23,358 nt of DNA from a virus: the IMG/VR virus record IMGVR_UViG_3300030098_006137, positions 1-23,358 of that record, one strand, 5' to 3'. The position numbers and the translations under genes are program-made. Numbering within the stretch: position 1 is the first letter of the stretch; each line of letters begins with the position of its first letter. Shown in pieces: positions 8,304 through 14,867 of this stretch. Below the pieces are notes generated by a model. That model did not search any database. It was given only the letters and a program-made list of their open reading frames with translations, and was not told the origin of the DNA.

Positions 8304-8975
8304 TTAAGAGATTTCGATATTGTCACGGGTGAAAGCCGCCCTGAATTTCTCTCTCAGGGTAGGCTCTTTGGAAGCCACTGCCTCATTGGCATTGGCCACA
8401 GGAGCATCGGTAGCTTCAGCAGCGTCAAGAGCCTCTTCCACTTCCACTTCTTCAGTAGATGCGGTGCTAACCCTTTTGGCGACTTCTTCGTCGATGCGTT
8501 CTTGAATTTCAGCATTAAAAGCAGCCTGAGCTTCTTTATTCTTATGCTTCCAAAGAACTTCAAGTTTGCCAGCGAAGGAAGCGTAAGCCTCTTCATCACC
8601 AACCTCTTTTAGCTCATTAGCAAGAAATTCACGATCTTGATCGTCAAGTTCGAACTTCTGATCAAGGTCATCCATGCGCTCATTGAAGCGAGCGACGGCC
8701 TCTTCGGCCTTCTTGTCGTTCTCAAAAGCCGAAATGCGCTCATTGGCGGCACCAAGCTTTTCTTCAAGTTCTGCAACAGAAGACTTTAATTCTTCGTGTT
8801 CCTTGACAGCGGATTCTTTGGCCGACTTAGCCTCTTCAATATCCTTACGGTATTGTTCGTCTCTTTCTTTGATTGCTTGCGCGAAAGTGTCGGTCATTGA
8901 AGCGACAGCCTCTTTATTGAATTTCTTCTCATTAAGAAGCTCTTTAAGTTCTGAAATAGTGTTTTCAATTTCCAT
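8304..8975 (-). CDS. Possible nested scaffold protein from internal start
   Basis: Inside the protease-scaffold frame, AAAGGA lies 10 nt upstream of an in-frame ATG at 8975. The product would be 223 aa beginning MEIENTISELKELLNEKKF, exactly the start of the coiled-coil scaffold. Lambda C/Nu3 uses the same layout (known). That it is used here is inferred from the start context and from the domain boundary coinciding with the ATG. Confidence 0.45.
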   Translation of the reverse strand: MEIENTISELKELLNEKKFNKEAVASMTDTFAQAIKERDEQYRKDIEEAKSAKESAVKEHEELKSSVAELEEKLGAANERISAFENDKKAEEAVARFNERMDDLDQKFELDDQDREFLANELKEVGDEEAYASFAGKLEVLWKHKNKEAQAAFNAEIQERIDEEVAKRVSTASTEEVEVEEALDAAEATDAPVANANEAVASKEPTLREKFRAAFTRDNIEIS

Positions 8976-9794
8976 AGCGATAATATCCTTTTTGGTGTTT
9001 ACATTAATTTTATTGTTTTGTGAAATTTTATCACGCTTATCGTTTATAAAAGGGACTGGTTTATCATCCAATTCTGAATACAAGCCCTTTACATCCGCAG
9101 CGGGATTTAACGTATAAGCAATCCCTAATGGGTAAATGTCACCTGTTATTAACCTAAAAATACTTTCGCCATCTTGAGTCTTTCCTGAACCACCATAGGT
9201 CCTTAAAAAACCCTTCATTTCCTCTATTTTACTAGGATCAGAGATGATTCTAGCGTCTTCTAAATCATCACTGCCAACGGCTAAAACATAATTACTGAAT
9301 CCGACCTCCCAGCTTGCAGAAACCTTTTTGTATGCTGAGTCATTCGGGTCAATTGACCTTTCAACGAGATCGGTGAAATTTTTATTAACGGACTTATAAA
9401 TTACTGCCCCCAAAGCAATATTAAATGGATTTTTTTTATTTTTAACTTGCTCATCGCTTAGCAACTTGCTTGAACCATACTCGCTGAAGCCCGCAGAAAC
9501 TATGTGTCCCACGACCTTTTGTTTATCGTGTTCTATGTTCGTGGGCTTATGAACAAAATTCTTTGTGTATTTTAGGGCGGTGGAGGTATCCATGCCGTCC
9601 CCATTTCTATTGAACTTATTAACAAGCGCAGCGTTAAAAGCCACGCCCAGCAAATCGATATTGCTATCGTAGTCTATGTCGGTTGGAACGAGTGGAGCTA
9701 AGTTGTCTAGTGAGGCTTGAGATATCAAAGAAGATTCATTGATTTCACACGCTAAAATCGGGGACTCAAAAGTTGTGGTATACTTGTAGTCCAT
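8304..9794 (-). CDS. Prohead protease fused to scaffold domain
   Basis: A 496-aa protein with two parts. Residues 1 to about 240 look like a prohead maturation protease of the T4 gp21/HK97 type: NFVHKPTNIEHDKQKVVGHI supplies a candidate catalytic His (H89), and KKVSASWEVGFSNY supplies a candidate catalytic Ser (S159 or S161). Residues from about 274 to 496 are an extremely charged coiled coil (Glu, Lys, Ala), as in scaffolding proteins, ending in a short basic tail (LREKFRAAFTRDNIEIS). The ATG at 9794 overlaps the stop of the upstream reading frame (TAATG). The product would process the prohead and remove its own scaffold. An internal start at 8975 may give scaffold alone. Confidence 0.85.
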   Translation of the reverse strand: MDYKYTTTFESPILACEINESSLISQASLDNLAPLVPTDIDYDSNIDLLGVAFNAALVNKFNRNGDGMDTSTALKYTKNFVHKPTNIEHDKQKVVGHIVSAGFSEYGSSKLLSDEQVKNKKNPFNIALGAVIYKSVNKNFTDLVERSIDPNDSAYKKVSASWEVGFSNYVLAVGSDDLEDARIISDPSKIEEMKGFLRTYGGSGKTQDGESIFRLITGDIYPLGIAYTLNPAADVKGLYSELDDKPVPFINDKRDKISQNNKINVNTKKDIIAMEIENTISELKELLNEKKFNKEAVASMTDTFAQAIKERDEQYRKDIEEAKSAKESAVKEHEELKSSVAELEEKLGAANERISAFENDKKAEEAVARFNERMDDLDQKFELDDQDREFLANELKEVGDEEAYASFAGKLEVLWKHKNKEAQAAFNAEIQERIDEEVAKRVSTASTEEVEVEEALDAAEATDAPVANANEAVASKEPTLREKFRAAFTRDNIEIS

Positions 9795-10003
9795 TATTTT
9801 TTCTCCATCCAGCTTTTAGGCAGGGCGCTTTCTGCTCCTATTTTTTTAGCTCTTCGTATAAGTTTCCTCTTAAACTCTTCAAAAGTCATTGATCCCTTAT
9901 ATCGACCCCAGCTACTAACGGCATTTCTTACATCTCTAGCTGACAAAACTGGAAAAGATCTTCTTTTTGGGTCAAGGAAATCACTATCATTTAGTTCGCT
10001 TCT
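9794..10003 (-). CDS. -1 frame C-terminal domain reached by frameshift on A9 run
   Basis: This frame is open for 69 codons and ends in a TAA that overlaps the protease ATG (TAATG at 9796-9792). It encodes RSELNDSDFLDPKRRSFPVL and continues with ARDVRNAVSSWGRYKG, EEFKRKLIRRAKKIG and a final LPKSWMEKK. The pattern (acidic SDF, RR.FP, DVRNAV, basic helix, LP.SW) resembles a small domain I recall at the ends of phage head proteins. No ATG, GTG or TTG precedes the conserved part; the stop upstream in this frame is a TGA 15 nt before the A-run. It would be joined to the repeat protein by a -1 slip at A-AAA-AAA (10003-10011). The alternatives are a one-base homopolymer error or an initiation I cannot see. 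An ATG at 9889 would give only 31 aa. Confidence 0.6.
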   Translation of the reverse strand, partial: RSELNDSDFLDPKRRSFPVLSARDVRNAVSSWGRYKGSMTFEEFKRKLIRRAKKIGAESALPKSWMEKK

Positions 10004-10968
10004 TTTTTTTTGCCGAATCTCTCAGCAGCAATATCGCTGAGCATTTCAGCATAGCTCGCTTTAGGCTTGATCTTTTCTTCATCCTTACCATCAGATTTCT
10101 TTTTGTCCTTGCGGAGCATTTGGAAATCCTCTTTGGTAATTTTTCCGTCCTTGTTTTTATCAAGGGCTGATTTTTGCTTATCAGTCATTTCAGCGATGAC
10201 TGGTTTACGAGGATAGCCTCTAACGGCGTCTCCTTCCACTTTCGTCTTAGGCGCCTTACCGACGTATTCGCCATCTTTTACCATCTCGGCCATCATTGGT
10301 TTACGAGGGTAGCCCCTCACGGCATCTCCCTCGACTTTCGTCTTAGGTGCCTTACCAACGTATTCGCCATCTTTTACCATCTCCGCCATTATTGGTTTAC
10401 GAGGGTAACCCCTCACGGCATCTCCCTCGACTTTCGTCTTAGGTGCCTTACCAACGTATTCGCCATCTTTCACCATTTCGGCTACTATTGGTTTACGAGG
10501 GTAGCCCCTCACGGCATCTCCCTCGACTTTCGTCTTAGGCGCCTTACCGACGTATTCGCCATCTTTTACCATCTCCGCCATTATTGGTTTACGGGGGTAT
10601 CCCCTGATAGCGTCTCCCTCCATCTTGGTTTCGGGTGGTTTACCAACATATTCGCCATCTTTTACCATGTTAGCATCTGACTCATTGCGAATATCGCCCT
10701 CGTCTTGCTTCATGTCCTTTTCAAGTGCAGCGATCTCAGCCTTAATGTTTTTAACGGCATCTTCGTGATGCTTAAGCATCTCCTTAAGATTTTCATGGGC
10801 AAGTTCCCGCTTATCCTTCGCGTCTTGGTCTAGCGTAATCCGCCTTTTTTCTTCTTGCAGATTAGAATAAGGTTTTCCAAATTCAGCCTTGGCTTGCTCT
10901 TTTTCAAAAACGCTAACTTCAAATTCGCCGTTTTTAAAACTTACTTTTGAATCAAGATTTTCTTTCAT
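9991..10968 (-). CDS. Repeat protein with coiled coil and EF-hand
   Basis: A 325-aa protein in four parts. Residues 1-98 are charged and helical. Residues 99-258 hold five tandem 32-residue repeats, each containing MVKDGEYVGK and GYPRKP. Residues 270-281 (DKNKDGKITKED) form a textbook EF-hand/dockerin-type calcium loop. A Lys-rich tail ends GKKKEAN. It lies between portal and protease, overlapping the portal gene by 17 nt. In the zero frame it stops at 9991 just after an A9 run; a -1 shift there would append a further 69 residues. By position it could be a head-internal or prohead-core protein. Repeat copy number may vary between relatives. Function is not known. Confidence 0.8.
   Translation of the reverse strand: MKENLDSKVSFKNGEFEVSVFEKEQAKAEFGKPYSNLQEEKRRITLDQDAKDKRELAHENLKEMLKHHEDAVKNIKAEIAALEKDMKQDEGDIRNESDANMVKDGEYVGKPPETKMEGDAIRGYPRKPIMAEMVKDGEYVGKAPKTKVEGDAVRGYPRKPIVAEMVKDGEYVGKAPKTKVEGDAVRGYPRKPIMAEMVKDGEYVGKAPKTKVEGDAVRGYPRKPMMAEMVKDGEYVGKAPKTKVEGDAVRGYPRKPVIAEMTDKQKSALDKNKDGKITKEDFQMLRKDKKKSDGKDEEKIKPKASYAEMLSDIAAERFGKKKEAN
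10195..10674 (-). repeat. Five 96-bp tandem repeats
   Basis: Units at 10579-10674, 10483-10578, 10387-10482, 10291-10386 and 10195-10290 (minus order) encode the 32-residue repeats. The first copy is the most diverged (PPETKMEGDAI in place of APKTKVEGDAV). The other four are nearly identical, with mostly synonymous changes, which suggests recent duplication or gene conversion with selection on the protein. Confidence 0.95.
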
Positions 10969-12952
10969 TACTGTGATAAAGGATTGCAGCGGGATAAACT
11001 TCTAAATTGTGAGTGTTAGATATATCTAAAACCTCGTCCAGAGTATCCAATTTTTGTATTTTGTTAAAATCCTTTACACAAGATTCAAGAGTTTCTACCC
11101 AAGATTCTTTATCTTTGGAGCAAACAATGGATTCACACAACTTTTCAAAAGCTTCAAGTTGAGCATCCGAAGCATTTTTGGCTTTGGAAATACCCAATTT
11201 CTTAAGCATTTTTGGTTTAGCCTCAGCAATAAACTTTTCTATTTGATATACGGTTTGTTGTATGTTTTCCCGAGAATAACTTGCCTCAAGTGGTATTCCT
11301 GTAGTTCCCTCGGGTCTGCCAGCTTGGCGAGGAGTTGTGTTTTTTTGGGGAGGAGTGGCTGCTCCGCCTGCTCCTACCATTGGAACACCTCCAACAAGCG
11401 GGTTGTAGAAACCCTCTTCCCTTTGTTTGACAAACTGTCCTTGAGCGGGAGCAATGTCTTTGGCTTCAGGGAAACGCCCCGTATTAAACATGTCCATACC
11501 CTGCTGTGGGGTGAGAATACCTAATTCCATTAAACGTGTAGAAACTTTCATCAATTGGGTCTCATCCCTCATGTCTACGTCCTTCATGCGAACAGTTGGG
11601 TAAGACCTTAAGCCCAGTTCCCTAGACACCCTCTTGACCTCCCTTTGCAGAAAATCGTTAACAAATCCGTGTCTTGCCTCTTTGAGTCTATCAACAAAAA
11701 TCTGCGCTTTTACTTGAGTAGCGCTATACTTCTCTTCACCAATAACGATATTCTGTAAACCTTGCCTAATATCCTCGTTAAGTATCTCGTATTTTTCTGG
11801 CCCCAAAACCCTGTTAAGCTCTGGAATGATAAATTCAGCCTTGGTTGTGTAATCGGAAACCAAAACACGCCCAACACTCTCGTTTTTGAAGAGGTTTTGC
11901 ATCGCCTTTAAATTGTTCGCATTTATACCACCCTTATCAGGATCAGCGCCCATCGTTATCAGTAGAATTACATTCTCTACTGTTCTGGTTATAGCCTGAT
12001 CCATTTTCTTCAACTCAAGCTTAGCGTTTATGTCCTCTAGCACAGGGAATCCGAAGGGGATAGCGAATGGCTCATAATCCTGCTTCTTGTAAAAAGAGTA
12101 GGATAACCTATACGGGTCAAGCTTTACCTTTACTCCGTCTTTATGGTAACCACCTCTTAGAATTAATTCTTTAACTTCAGGCTCCAAGCTATTAAAAATT
12201 TCTAAATCCTCTTCTGTTTGGGGATTCCGAAGTCTAGCCATCTCGTAATCAGAAAGGATTTTTTCATAACCATCAATGGCAAAGCTGGAGGCTTTTTTAG
12301 CTATAATGTCATACGGATTGAGTAAAATATAACGAAGTGGAATTTTATTAGAGGAGGGATTAATTGCGCCAACTTGATTCATTAACTTGGCATAATCTTC
12401 AGTTTTAAATTTACCATCAATTCTATAAAGAAACACGTTACCACTGCGATAATATTCTCTAAAATACTGGTCTTTAAGGTTTATTAAATTAATTTTCCTG
12501 AACCACTCAGTGAAAAATTCACGACTCTTTTTTGTTCCACCCTCCAAGTAAACGTCTGTATTCGTGAATTCAGCCATGATGTCAATGGCGTTTCTAAAAA
12601 TAGCTACATTTGCATAAGCTTTTTGACAAAGCTCTATACCGTCTCGGGCGCTACACCCATCAGCGGCGTAGCTATAGGGTAGTAGGCCAACTTTAATGCT
12701 AGAAAATCTATCGTGCTGATTACGATAAGCTACTCTATTTGTGCGAGTGCCAGTTCTTGTGCCGACATCTAAATTTGTTCGTGCTTTGGCCACATCTGAA
12801 TAAGATGCATCAGACGTATAAAACGGTTCACCCAATAGATCGGGTATTGTGGTACTAGCTGAAGGCGCAACATATGAGCCTTCTGACTGCTCGTTATCCT
12901 TTTCAAACTTTTTCCAATAATCAGACTTCTTATTATATTTTCTCTTAGCCAT
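10952..12952 (-). CDS. Portal protein
   Basis: A 666-aa protein (MAKRKYNKKSDYWKKFEKDN). After a basic N-terminus, residues about 90-480 show the portal pattern: an early helical block (NVAIFRNAIDIMAEFTNTDV), FREYYRSGNVFLYRIDGKF, the NPYDI segment, and a long helical stem region with DRLKEARHGFVNDFLQREV followed by LMELGILTPQQGMDMFNTG, which is common in T4-like portals. The C-terminal 130 residues are Gly/Pro-rich and then helical. It forms the DNA-packaging ring that TerL docks on. It follows terL by 49 nt and overlaps the repeat-protein gene. A GTGTA motif ends 16 nt upstream of the ATG. Confidence 0.88.
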   Translation of the reverse strand: MAKRKYNKKSDYWKKFEKDNEQSEGSYVAPSASTTIPDLLGEPFYTSDASYSDVAKARTNLDVGTRTGTRTNRVAYRNQHDRFSSIKVGLLPYSYAADGCSARDGIELCQKAYANVAIFRNAIDIMAEFTNTDVYLEGGTKKSREFFTEWFRKINLINLKDQYFREYYRSGNVFLYRIDGKFKTEDYAKLMNQVGAINPSSNKIPLRYILLNPYDIIAKKASSFAIDGYEKILSDYEMARLRNPQTEEDLEIFNSLEPEVKELILRGGYHKDGVKVKLDPYRLSYSFYKKQDYEPFAIPFGFPVLEDINAKLELKKMDQAITRTVENVILLITMGADPDKGGINANNLKAMQNLFKNESVGRVLVSDYTTKAEFIIPELNRVLGPEKYEILNEDIRQGLQNIVIGEEKYSATQVKAQIFVDRLKEARHGFVNDFLQREVKRVSRELGLRSYPTVRMKDVDMRDETQLMKVSTRLMELGILTPQQGMDMFNTGRFPEAKDIAPAQGQFVKQREEGFYNPLVGGVPMVGAGGAATPPQKNTTPRQAGRPEGTTGIPLEASYSRENIQQTVYQIEKFIAEAKPKMLKKLGISKAKNASDAQLEAFEKLCESIVCSKDKESWVETLESCVKDFNKIQKLDTLDEVLDISNTHNLEVYPAAILYHSNERKS

Positions 12953-13001: not shown

Positions 13002-14867
13002 TTAAGAAATAAACATTGGAGTGAACGTAGAATGCGCTTGGTCGCCCTCATGGCTTTCCATATCAAGGAAAACACCAACCATCCAATTTCCAAGGACTAA
13101 TGCCGAGTAGGAGTCTTTCCGAGCTTTATCAGCACCCTTTTGTTTTCTTAGGTTTGGGGGCAAATCAAAGCTTTGCGTTCCTTGAACCGAAGTTGTTACA
13201 TGGACAAGAGCGCACTGCACCTTGATCAAATCCATCATGTCTTTTTGATGCTCAACGAAATCAATCATCCTCGCTCCAACGGCACTTGTCTCATTTGGGT
13301 CATTCCTTAGAAACTTTAATTCCTTAATTGGGATTCTGGCCTTCCTCTGGTTATTGTAATCATCATCCATAGCCGCCCCAGCAAAAAATATCTTCTTATG
13401 ATCAAATGCTGCTTGCAAACTTTCATTTGCATATCGAATCCACTGGGAGCTAGGCTTTCTCAAGAAAACAAACTTTCTATTTGTTTTGTTGTATTGGTTT
13501 TTTAATTTTAATATATTTTTATTGTAATCCTGCGCTTTATCCAATTCCGCGTCAATTGCCTCCAACCTAAGGTTTTGCTTCTTGAATACCTCACTTTCAT
13601 TACAAGAATTCATGAACTGCACCCCACCATTGTAGTCACCCACAACTGCAACGATATTGAAATATGTTAGCAGGTAAGCGGCATACTTGATATGTGTTTT
13701 TAAATTGGCTCCTGACAAGGCGTAGCTGTGAACCACCGTGCCTTTACGGGTGTCCCTATTTAATTTAATTAAAAGCATCGCGAAATCATCAGAGCTTTCA
13801 CTTTCAGACCATGATGGGTCAAAGGCTAAAATATATTCATCCTGTGGATTGCCTATAACTTCCACACACTGCCCCTCTCCGTCTGGCAAAGTGCAGTCTG
13901 CCATTTTACTAACTTTAAAATACCCAGAGCTATCATCTGTGAATAAAGCTCCAAACTCCCTGTCGAATTGTGACTGACTCATGCTGGCCTGCGCCTGACT
14001 TATAAGGTTCTGGTCGTATAGCTGTTCGGGCGCACAGTCATAGCTAAAATGCATAATTGTTCTATGCGCTCCATCCTGCTTGTTCTCATTTAGTATGAGG
14101 CTCTCATACTGTTGATAGAGCTTGTAAAGGTATTCAAACTTATAAGATGCAGATGACAAACCTATGATTTTGTTGTTTGGCCATACACGCCTTTCCTCTT
14201 CTTTCATTTTTCCAGCCTCAATCAACTGGGTTTCCAGATCATGTATCTCCTGACGCTCAGTGGGGTTTTCCACTACAGACAGGAACGGCATAATCACCTC
14301 GTTATAAATCTTTTCGGGCATTAGCAACAACTCATCAATAATCATGCGTTGAAATCTAAAACCCCTGAGCTTTTCGCCGTCGCCCAGTGGTAAAGCGCGA
14401 ATGCTACTCCTACCAATCTCCATAACCCACTCATCATTCATTTTTGAAGTTCGGGTAATGCACTGAGCAAAAAAGGTGGCCTTCGGGCTTTTTGATATCT
14501 CCTCTATCTTTTTGAAGATCATTTTTGATTGCCTAAAAGACTTAGACAAAATACCTATCTGCACACCTTGATTCAGAATAGCGTCTAAGAGCGCGAAAAT
14601 GGCCGTAGAGAAGCTTTTGGACATTCCACGGCTCCAGATGCCCAAAAAGTAATCGGACTCCATCATGGCCTTTATAGCCATATGTTGAAAGGGGAATAAT
14701 TTTACCCCAGTTAACAATTCAGAAGCAAATGAAGGATTTTCCCTAAGAAACTTATAAAGCAAAATTTTTGCCTCAGTTTCTTCTAAATACCCCTCTTTTT
14801 CTAAAACTTCTGTGTTTATATCTTTGAACCCTCGGTTCAGTTTCTGCTTTCCTGTTTCCCAAGCCAT
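13002..14867 (-). CDS. terL: Terminase large subunit (packaging ATPase-nuclease)
   Basis: A 621-aa protein. The ATPase domain has a TerL-style P-loop SRGMSKS (residues 79-85), and a Walker B with catalytic Glu, MIIDE (175-179), preceded by GEKLRGFRF. The C-terminal RNase H-like nuclease has the expected acidic residues: AFDPSW (D350), VVGDYNGG (D411) and RKDSYSALVLG (D585). The length is normal for the family. The enzyme pumps DNA into the prohead through the portal and cuts the concatemer. The ATG at 14867 is the only sensible start, since the next Met is residue 63. This start lies 95 nt inside the upstream nuclease gene. Confidence 0.95.
   Translation of the reverse strand: MAWETGKQKLNRGFKDINTEVLEKEGYLEETEAKILLYKFLRENPSFASELLTGVKLFPFQHMAIKAMMESDYFLGIWSRGMSKSFSTAIFALLDAILNQGVQIGILSKSFRQSKMIFKKIEEISKSPKATFFAQCITRTSKMNDEWVMEIGRSSIRALPLGDGEKLRGFRFQRMIIDELLLMPEKIYNEVIMPFLSVVENPTERQEIHDLETQLIEAGKMKEEERRVWPNNKIIGLSSASYKFEYLYKLYQQYESLILNENKQDGAHRTIMHFSYDCAPEQLYDQNLISQAQASMSQSQFDREFGALFTDDSSGYFKVSKMADCTLPDGEGQCVEVIGNPQDEYILAFDPSWSESESSDDFAMLLIKLNRDTRKGTVVHSYALSGANLKTHIKYAAYLLTYFNIVAVVGDYNGGVQFMNSCNESEVFKKQNLRLEAIDAELDKAQDYNKNILKLKNQYNKTNRKFVFLRKPSSQWIRYANESLQAAFDHKKIFFAGAAMDDDYNNQRKARIPIKELKFLRNDPNETSAVGARMIDFVEHQKDMMDLIKVQCALVHVTTSVQGTQSFDLPPNLRKQKGADKARKDSYSALVLGNWMVGVFLDMESHEGDQAHSTFTPMFIS

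Follow-up and report, generated by a model that had tools for sequence, protein, structure and literature searches.

A run of nine adenines in a phage head-module gene as a probable site of programmed slippage into a conserved DUF6582-like domain

Comparison of viral sequences from a family of uncultured phages indicates that one gene in the head module of a double-stranded DNA phage very probably has two products, both of them forms of a head-assembly protein. Standard decoding would yield a 325-aa form ending in GKKKEAN, and in some expression events an additional A would in effect be read within a run of nine A's (A9), producing a 391-aa form that continues as GKKK-RSELNDSDFLDPK... and carries a DUF6582-like domain. 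Programmed slippage at one level or another is highly likely to be responsible, and the balance of the evidence tips toward transcription as the main level: RNA polymerase would add an A on the A9 run, and the resulting A10 mRNA would be translated normally into the fusion. This proposal is based on the observations that the domain is conserved, is selected in the -1 frame, and can be reached only through the run; that the nine A's are kept; and that the predicted fusion equals the product of those relatives that encode the domain in frame.

Gene order and reading frames at the A9 run

The window (the whole stretch of DNA analyzed here, 23,358 nucleotides) belongs to a virus record of 28,167 bases. 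On its minus strand, the genes for the terminase large subunit (13002..14867), a portal-like protein (10952..12952), and the repeat protein are followed by a 496-aa open reading frame (ORF; 8304..9794) and then by further genes. The terminase gene puts the site in the head/packaging module, and the portal-like gene produced tblastn matches to the portal proteins of Bacillus phages Slash and Stills. No close relative of this phage was found in the phage collection searched, and the host search of genome contigs returned just two matches, both of them distant and in metagenome-assembled genomes.

The frame-0 ORF (9991..10968, minus strand) encodes the truncated product, which consists of an N-terminal part, near-identical 33-aa repeats, and an EF-hand-like DKNKDGKI segment. 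The tandem repeats (window positions 10200-10680) form an array that is missing in the relatives displayed, and the length of the fused ORF differs widely among relatives. Around the run, the minus strand reads ...GAG AGA TTC GGC AAA AAA AAA GAA GCG AAC TAA, so that the nine A's (10003..10011), which include the heptamer A_AAA_AAA, fall into frame 0 as GGC AAA AAA AAA GAA, with the TAA stop codon (9991..9993) located 9 bases past the run. All A9 members have a TAA at this distance. From the run onward, the -1 frame (9797..10003, minus strand) encodes 69 aa, RSELNDSDFLDPKRRSFPVLSARDVRNAVSSWGRYKGSMTFEEFKRKLIRRAKKIGAESALPKSWMEKK, including the tryptic peptide SELNDSDFLDPK, and terminates in TAATG (9792..9796), the ATG of which is the start codon of the 496-aa ORF; most relatives share this overlap. 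The original prediction had described the run, the stop, the 69-codon frame, and the TAATG overlap correctly, and its estimate of 325 and about 390 aa for the two products agrees with the counted 325 and 391 (322 + 69) aa. In all A9 members except the window, a T precedes the run and forms with its first two A's a TAA codon that shuts the -1 frame, so the frame change must fall inside the run.

Runs of nine A's are present in a few further ORFs of these genomes, and therefore such a run is not diagnostic by itself. A possible second slip-prone site is seen in three related phages, L195, L197, and L202, in which A9 runs occupy approximately codons 4 to 6 of a small (~97-aa) ORF (ATGGATGCGAAAAAAAAATTA); its possible counterpart in the window is located at 1291-1578 on the minus strand.

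Distribution, selection, and history of the A9 allele

Viral contigs were searched with the 69-aa domain alone, a query blind to the run, and 64 loci were retrieved. In 28 of these, as in the window, the run counts exactly nine A's and the domain after it is in the -1 frame; in the other 36 (first set), the domain is read in frame and the runs are short. An eight-A run was not found at any of the retrieved loci. A separate scan for the A9 pattern returned 29 contigs, all of them already known: the same 28 and a distant phage, L128. The 29 A9 contigs of the main lineage, window included, come from ~20 metagenomes, and comparing the run and both frames among related phages, as the original prediction had proposed, shows that the run has been kept in every one of them. 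The exact length of the slippery run is thus conserved across diverged homologues, a mark of programmed recoding sites. In one member of the A9 lineage, L029, the run has ten A's and the domain is read in frame, so the short form need not be essential. Relatives with both parts in one frame and no slippery run had been named as a finding that would speak against slippage. Such relatives do exist, but the slippage reading survives them, because the fused product is the standard product of the family, put behind a slippery run in one allele lineage; even the junction has the same length in the fusion (FGKKKRSEL) and in the in-frame relatives (FGGKKRSAL).

The shifted-frame product is under strong purifying selection, another criterion for recoding sites: across 20 distinct A9 sequences of the domain, the -1 frame has a pN/pS of 0.04 and a pS of 0.62, compared with a pN/pS of 0.06 in the in-frame homologues. 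Given this value and the conservation of the domain in dozens of phages, it is not a chance product of the -1 frame. Selection is also evident at the nucleotide level. The codon is invariant in only 7 of the 60 amino-acid-invariant columns around the site, and AAA AAA AAA AGA at the site itself accounts for four of the seven, whereas 53 of the 56 amino-acid-invariant columns away from the slip-site codons vary synonymously. The hypergeometric chance of finding all four slip-site codons among the seven is 7e-5, a count that ignores shared ancestry; elsewhere in the same genes, AAA makes up 64% of the Lys codons. Taken together, the low pN/pS and the codon invariance at the site indicate that the domain is in use and that the run itself is preserved in the DNA.

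The A9 alleles group into one clade (support 100/99) in the tree built from the domain DNA and have diverged to ~80% nucleotide identity; L029, nested within this clade, represents a single return to the in-frame state. When a tree is built from the downstream ORF, seven changes of the A9 label are required, and the closest relative of the window by that ORF, L040 (94%), has the domain in frame. These two sequence trees would be explained most simply if recombination carries the A9-domain allele from one phage background to another. L128, the portal of which is 51% identical, has the same layout, FN-A9-GAAGTGAATTAA, with exactly nine A's. Its domain falls in another clade, and placing all A9 alleles in a single clade is rejected (AU p 0.008), so this arrangement has arisen at least twice, unless the junction alone was transferred.

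Transcriptional or ribosomal slippage

The A9 run fits both mechanisms, as A_AAA_AAA is also a known ribosomal heptamer. Uninterrupted runs of about nine or more A's are a mark of transcriptional slippage, and bacterial RNA polymerase can slip on a run of nine, Thermus dnaX being an example (PMC1088944, PMC5009743), although the polymerase used here may differ. The first two A's, which lie outside the heptamer, are invariant as well, and both independent A9 lineages have the Lys codon AAA where in-frame homologues have Gly, resulting in nine A's rather than seven. Folding of the members revealed no conserved downstream RNA structure at the site (mean z of -0.25 to -0.45), and no Shine-Dalgarno (SD)-like element was detected upstream of the run; folding can, however, miss stimulators of ribosomal shifting. 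The invariant first two A's, the gain of nine A's in two lineages, and the lack of a conserved structure or SD-like stimulator slightly favor the polymerase.

A GCCGAA...TTCGGT hairpin that abuts the run on its 5' side in several members was considered as a conserved stimulator and rejected: it is missing in L006, L015, L021, and L128 and its overall strength does not exceed what the choice of synonymous codons permits. In ~20 loci (e.g., L004, L010, and L042), a GC-rich stretch and the T9 after it (CCTGCGGGGGGTGGCTTTTTTTTT) are conserved some 3.6 kb downstream of the run. This element resembles an intrinsic terminator and would be consistent with a cellular-type polymerase transcribing these genes, which tentatively adds to the preference for the polymerase.

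The main competing explanation, programmed -1 ribosomal frameshifting at A_AAA_AAA_G, is a serious possibility, albeit not the one we consider probable. According to it, the Lys-tRNAs in the P and A sites would re-pair one base back, and the ribosome would go on to read AGA AGC GAA into the domain. Ribosomal -1 shifting is used in tail-chaperone genes and in genes of A2 and T3-type phages. At the present site, an X_XXY_YYZ heptamer is found in frame 0 (A_AAA_AAA before GAA, beginning at the third A of the run), it is invariant, and the frame-0 stop follows three codons past it. Extensions of phage virion proteins by -1 shifting at their C termini are well documented (PMC5009743), and A_AAA_AAA is a proven motif in insertion sequence elements (PMC4066793, PMC3711429). 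On the other hand, the first two A's are superfluous for the heptamer, yet both A9 lineages have Lys AAA at the Gly position of in-frame homologues, and neither of the stimulators that commonly, if not universally, accompany such sites, a downstream structure and an upstream SD-like element, was detected. The original prediction of a programmed -1 slip that yields two forms is therefore upheld as to the frame change inside the run; the level at which it placed this change, the ribosome, is now slightly less favored than the polymerase.

Other explanations of the split gene

Phase variation appears improbable. Under this explanation, the run would be a mutational contingency site, with the domain made only by an A10 subpopulation and A9 genomes doing without it. 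The ten in-frame A's of L029, inside the A9 lineage, are what such a switch would produce, and homopolymers are hypermutable (PMC1088944). However, there are 29 A9 runs against one A10 and no A8, even though ~60% of the synonymous sites differ, and selection on the domain is as strong in the A9 phages as in the in-frame ones, which fits its expression in most generations.

Translation of the domain as a separate gene, from its own (perhaps noncanonical) start or by reinitiation past the frame-0 stop, is more doubtful still. Small stand-alone ORFs with this domain do exist in other phages (L127 and L163), but in all A9 members checked, the domain frame past the run contains no standard start codon until domain residue 19 or later, in line with the original prediction that none precedes the conserved part. 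Not only ATG, GTG, and TTG but also ATT, ATC, ATA, and CTG are absent before that residue, and the ATG found past the frame-0 stop in the window is out of frame and is missing in the relatives shown. An independent start of the domain was rejected on these grounds.

Finally, an artifact of sequencing or assembly, or a recent one-base deletion that inactivated the gene, which the original prediction had offered as its alternative and which the error-prone nature of homopolymers and the existence of in-frame homologues could suggest, is effectively ruled out by the same nine A's in 29 contigs from ~20 metagenomes and in a distant phage, by the well-supported and diverged A9 clade, and by a pN/pS that contradicts decay.

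The domain and its possible role

The profile search with the 69-aa sequence that had been proposed as a check identified no established family at the curated threshold, only a weak match to the Pfam family DUF6582 (PF20223): the window domain and eight other members match it over the core with E values of 0.0005 to 0.01, and the window domain scores 19.1 bits, under the gathering cutoff of 27.3. Judging from these matches, the domain may represent a sister family of DUF6582. There was no mention of DUF6582 in the literature searched. The AlphaFold2 model of the domain is compact and of high confidence (pLDDT of 88). A search of the PDB with this model produced no match, and its matches elsewhere were limited to other phage proteins, mostly of unknown function. 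Among the phage proteins predicted to have this fold are some with the annotations Dps-like, NUDIX hydrolase, and ADP-ribosyltransferase; an idea suggested by these models is that the domain might serve as a capsid cargo or targeting tag.

The domain is an element of phage head modules, found elsewhere on or beside portal, protease, or capsid proteins. It is fused to the portal protein (PF04860) in L133, to the prohead protease (PF04586) in L129, L136, and L142, and to protease-capsid polyproteins in L141 and L190, and it is present in the capsid maturation proteases of Gordonia phages, such as DalanDe. In L057, one protein seems to carry two copies of a DUF6582-like domain (FAYIKAGG...RTVPRSLRQFPL and FLDPKRRSFPV). 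We infer that a fraction of the repeat protein delivers the domain, which would act as an interaction module in head assembly. More tentatively, the fused form would bring it to the assembling head at a substoichiometric ratio.

The downstream gene

Profile searches with the 496-aa ORF (8304..9794) yielded no match, and its predicted model was too poor for a structure search. By its position and motifs, the product is putatively prohead-protease/scaffold-like. In L128, a PAP2 acid-phosphatase domain (PF01569, E = 9e-10) is fused to the N terminus of the protease-like ORF downstream (L128:3208-5493), which is unusual for a head module. In many members, GGAG is found just ahead of the ATG of the next gene. 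By analogy with known systems, slippage may be coupled to the expression of this gene through TAATG: ribosomes that end the fusion there could pass to the next gene, and slippage may in this way tune its expression.

The full scheme suggested by these sequence comparisons is more tentative than its parts. In it, RNA polymerase slippage on A9 in a double-stranded DNA phage head-assembly gene would set the ratio of the two forms and, via TAATG, the dose of the next gene, and the A9 allele would recombine between in-frame backgrounds, having arisen at least twice. We regard this combination as possible, though short of probable.

Significance and comparison with known systems

As a recoding site, the A9 run is well supported and departs from the usual theme of tail-chaperone genes. 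Closely related phages hold natural alleles of the same gene, with the domain behind an A9 slip, in frame behind A10, or in frame behind a short run, so the benefit of the two-product arrangement is directly comparable among them. A domain of unknown function that recurs on portals, proteases, and capsid polyproteins could, it appears, be supplied substoichiometrically. In addition, gene callers will give a truncated protein that misses the domain in all such phages.

Slippage on A9 is already known, as are frameshifted extensions of phage virion proteins. In the literature searched, itself partial, no report of polymerase slippage in a head gene of a double-stranded DNA phage was found; the nearest precedent is the suggestion made for a poly-A frameshift in a methyltransferase gene of a Campylobacter phage (PMC2853527).

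In dnaX of Thermus thermophilus, transcriptional slippage takes place on nine A's (PMC1088944, PMC3711429). Shared features are nine A's in the coding strand, a nearby stop, and two products expected to differ at their C termini. However, the long form of dnaX is the unslipped one, whereas here the domain-bearing long form needs the slip, and slippage was demonstrated for dnaX, whereas here it is inferred from sequence. The case of Citrobacter rodentium tssM1 (PMC4256274) is similar in that a poly-A run lies just ahead of a stop, slippage restores a conserved C-terminal domain, and there are no stimulators nearby; it differs in having A11 rather than A9, in being a chromosomal secretion gene, and in having been proven by experiment.

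Transcriptional slippage in Shigella spa13 affects the next gene, spa32 (described in PMC5009743). There, the end of the slipped C-terminal extension overlaps the start of the next gene, as in the present order of domain, TAATG, and next gene. However, spa13 is a bacterial secretion gene for which the effect on the next gene is described, whereas the gene described here is a phage head gene for which such an effect is suggested by analogy.

The capsid and tail proteins of T3, A2, PSA, and A118 (PMC5009743) are comparable in that a frame change adds a domain to a fraction of a virion protein and that relatives can have a domain of this type in frame. In those phages, ribosomal shifting adds Ig-like or other extensions to a major capsid or tail protein; in the present case, a DUF6582-like head-module domain would be added, at an A9 run, to a small repeat protein encoded between portal and protease-like genes.
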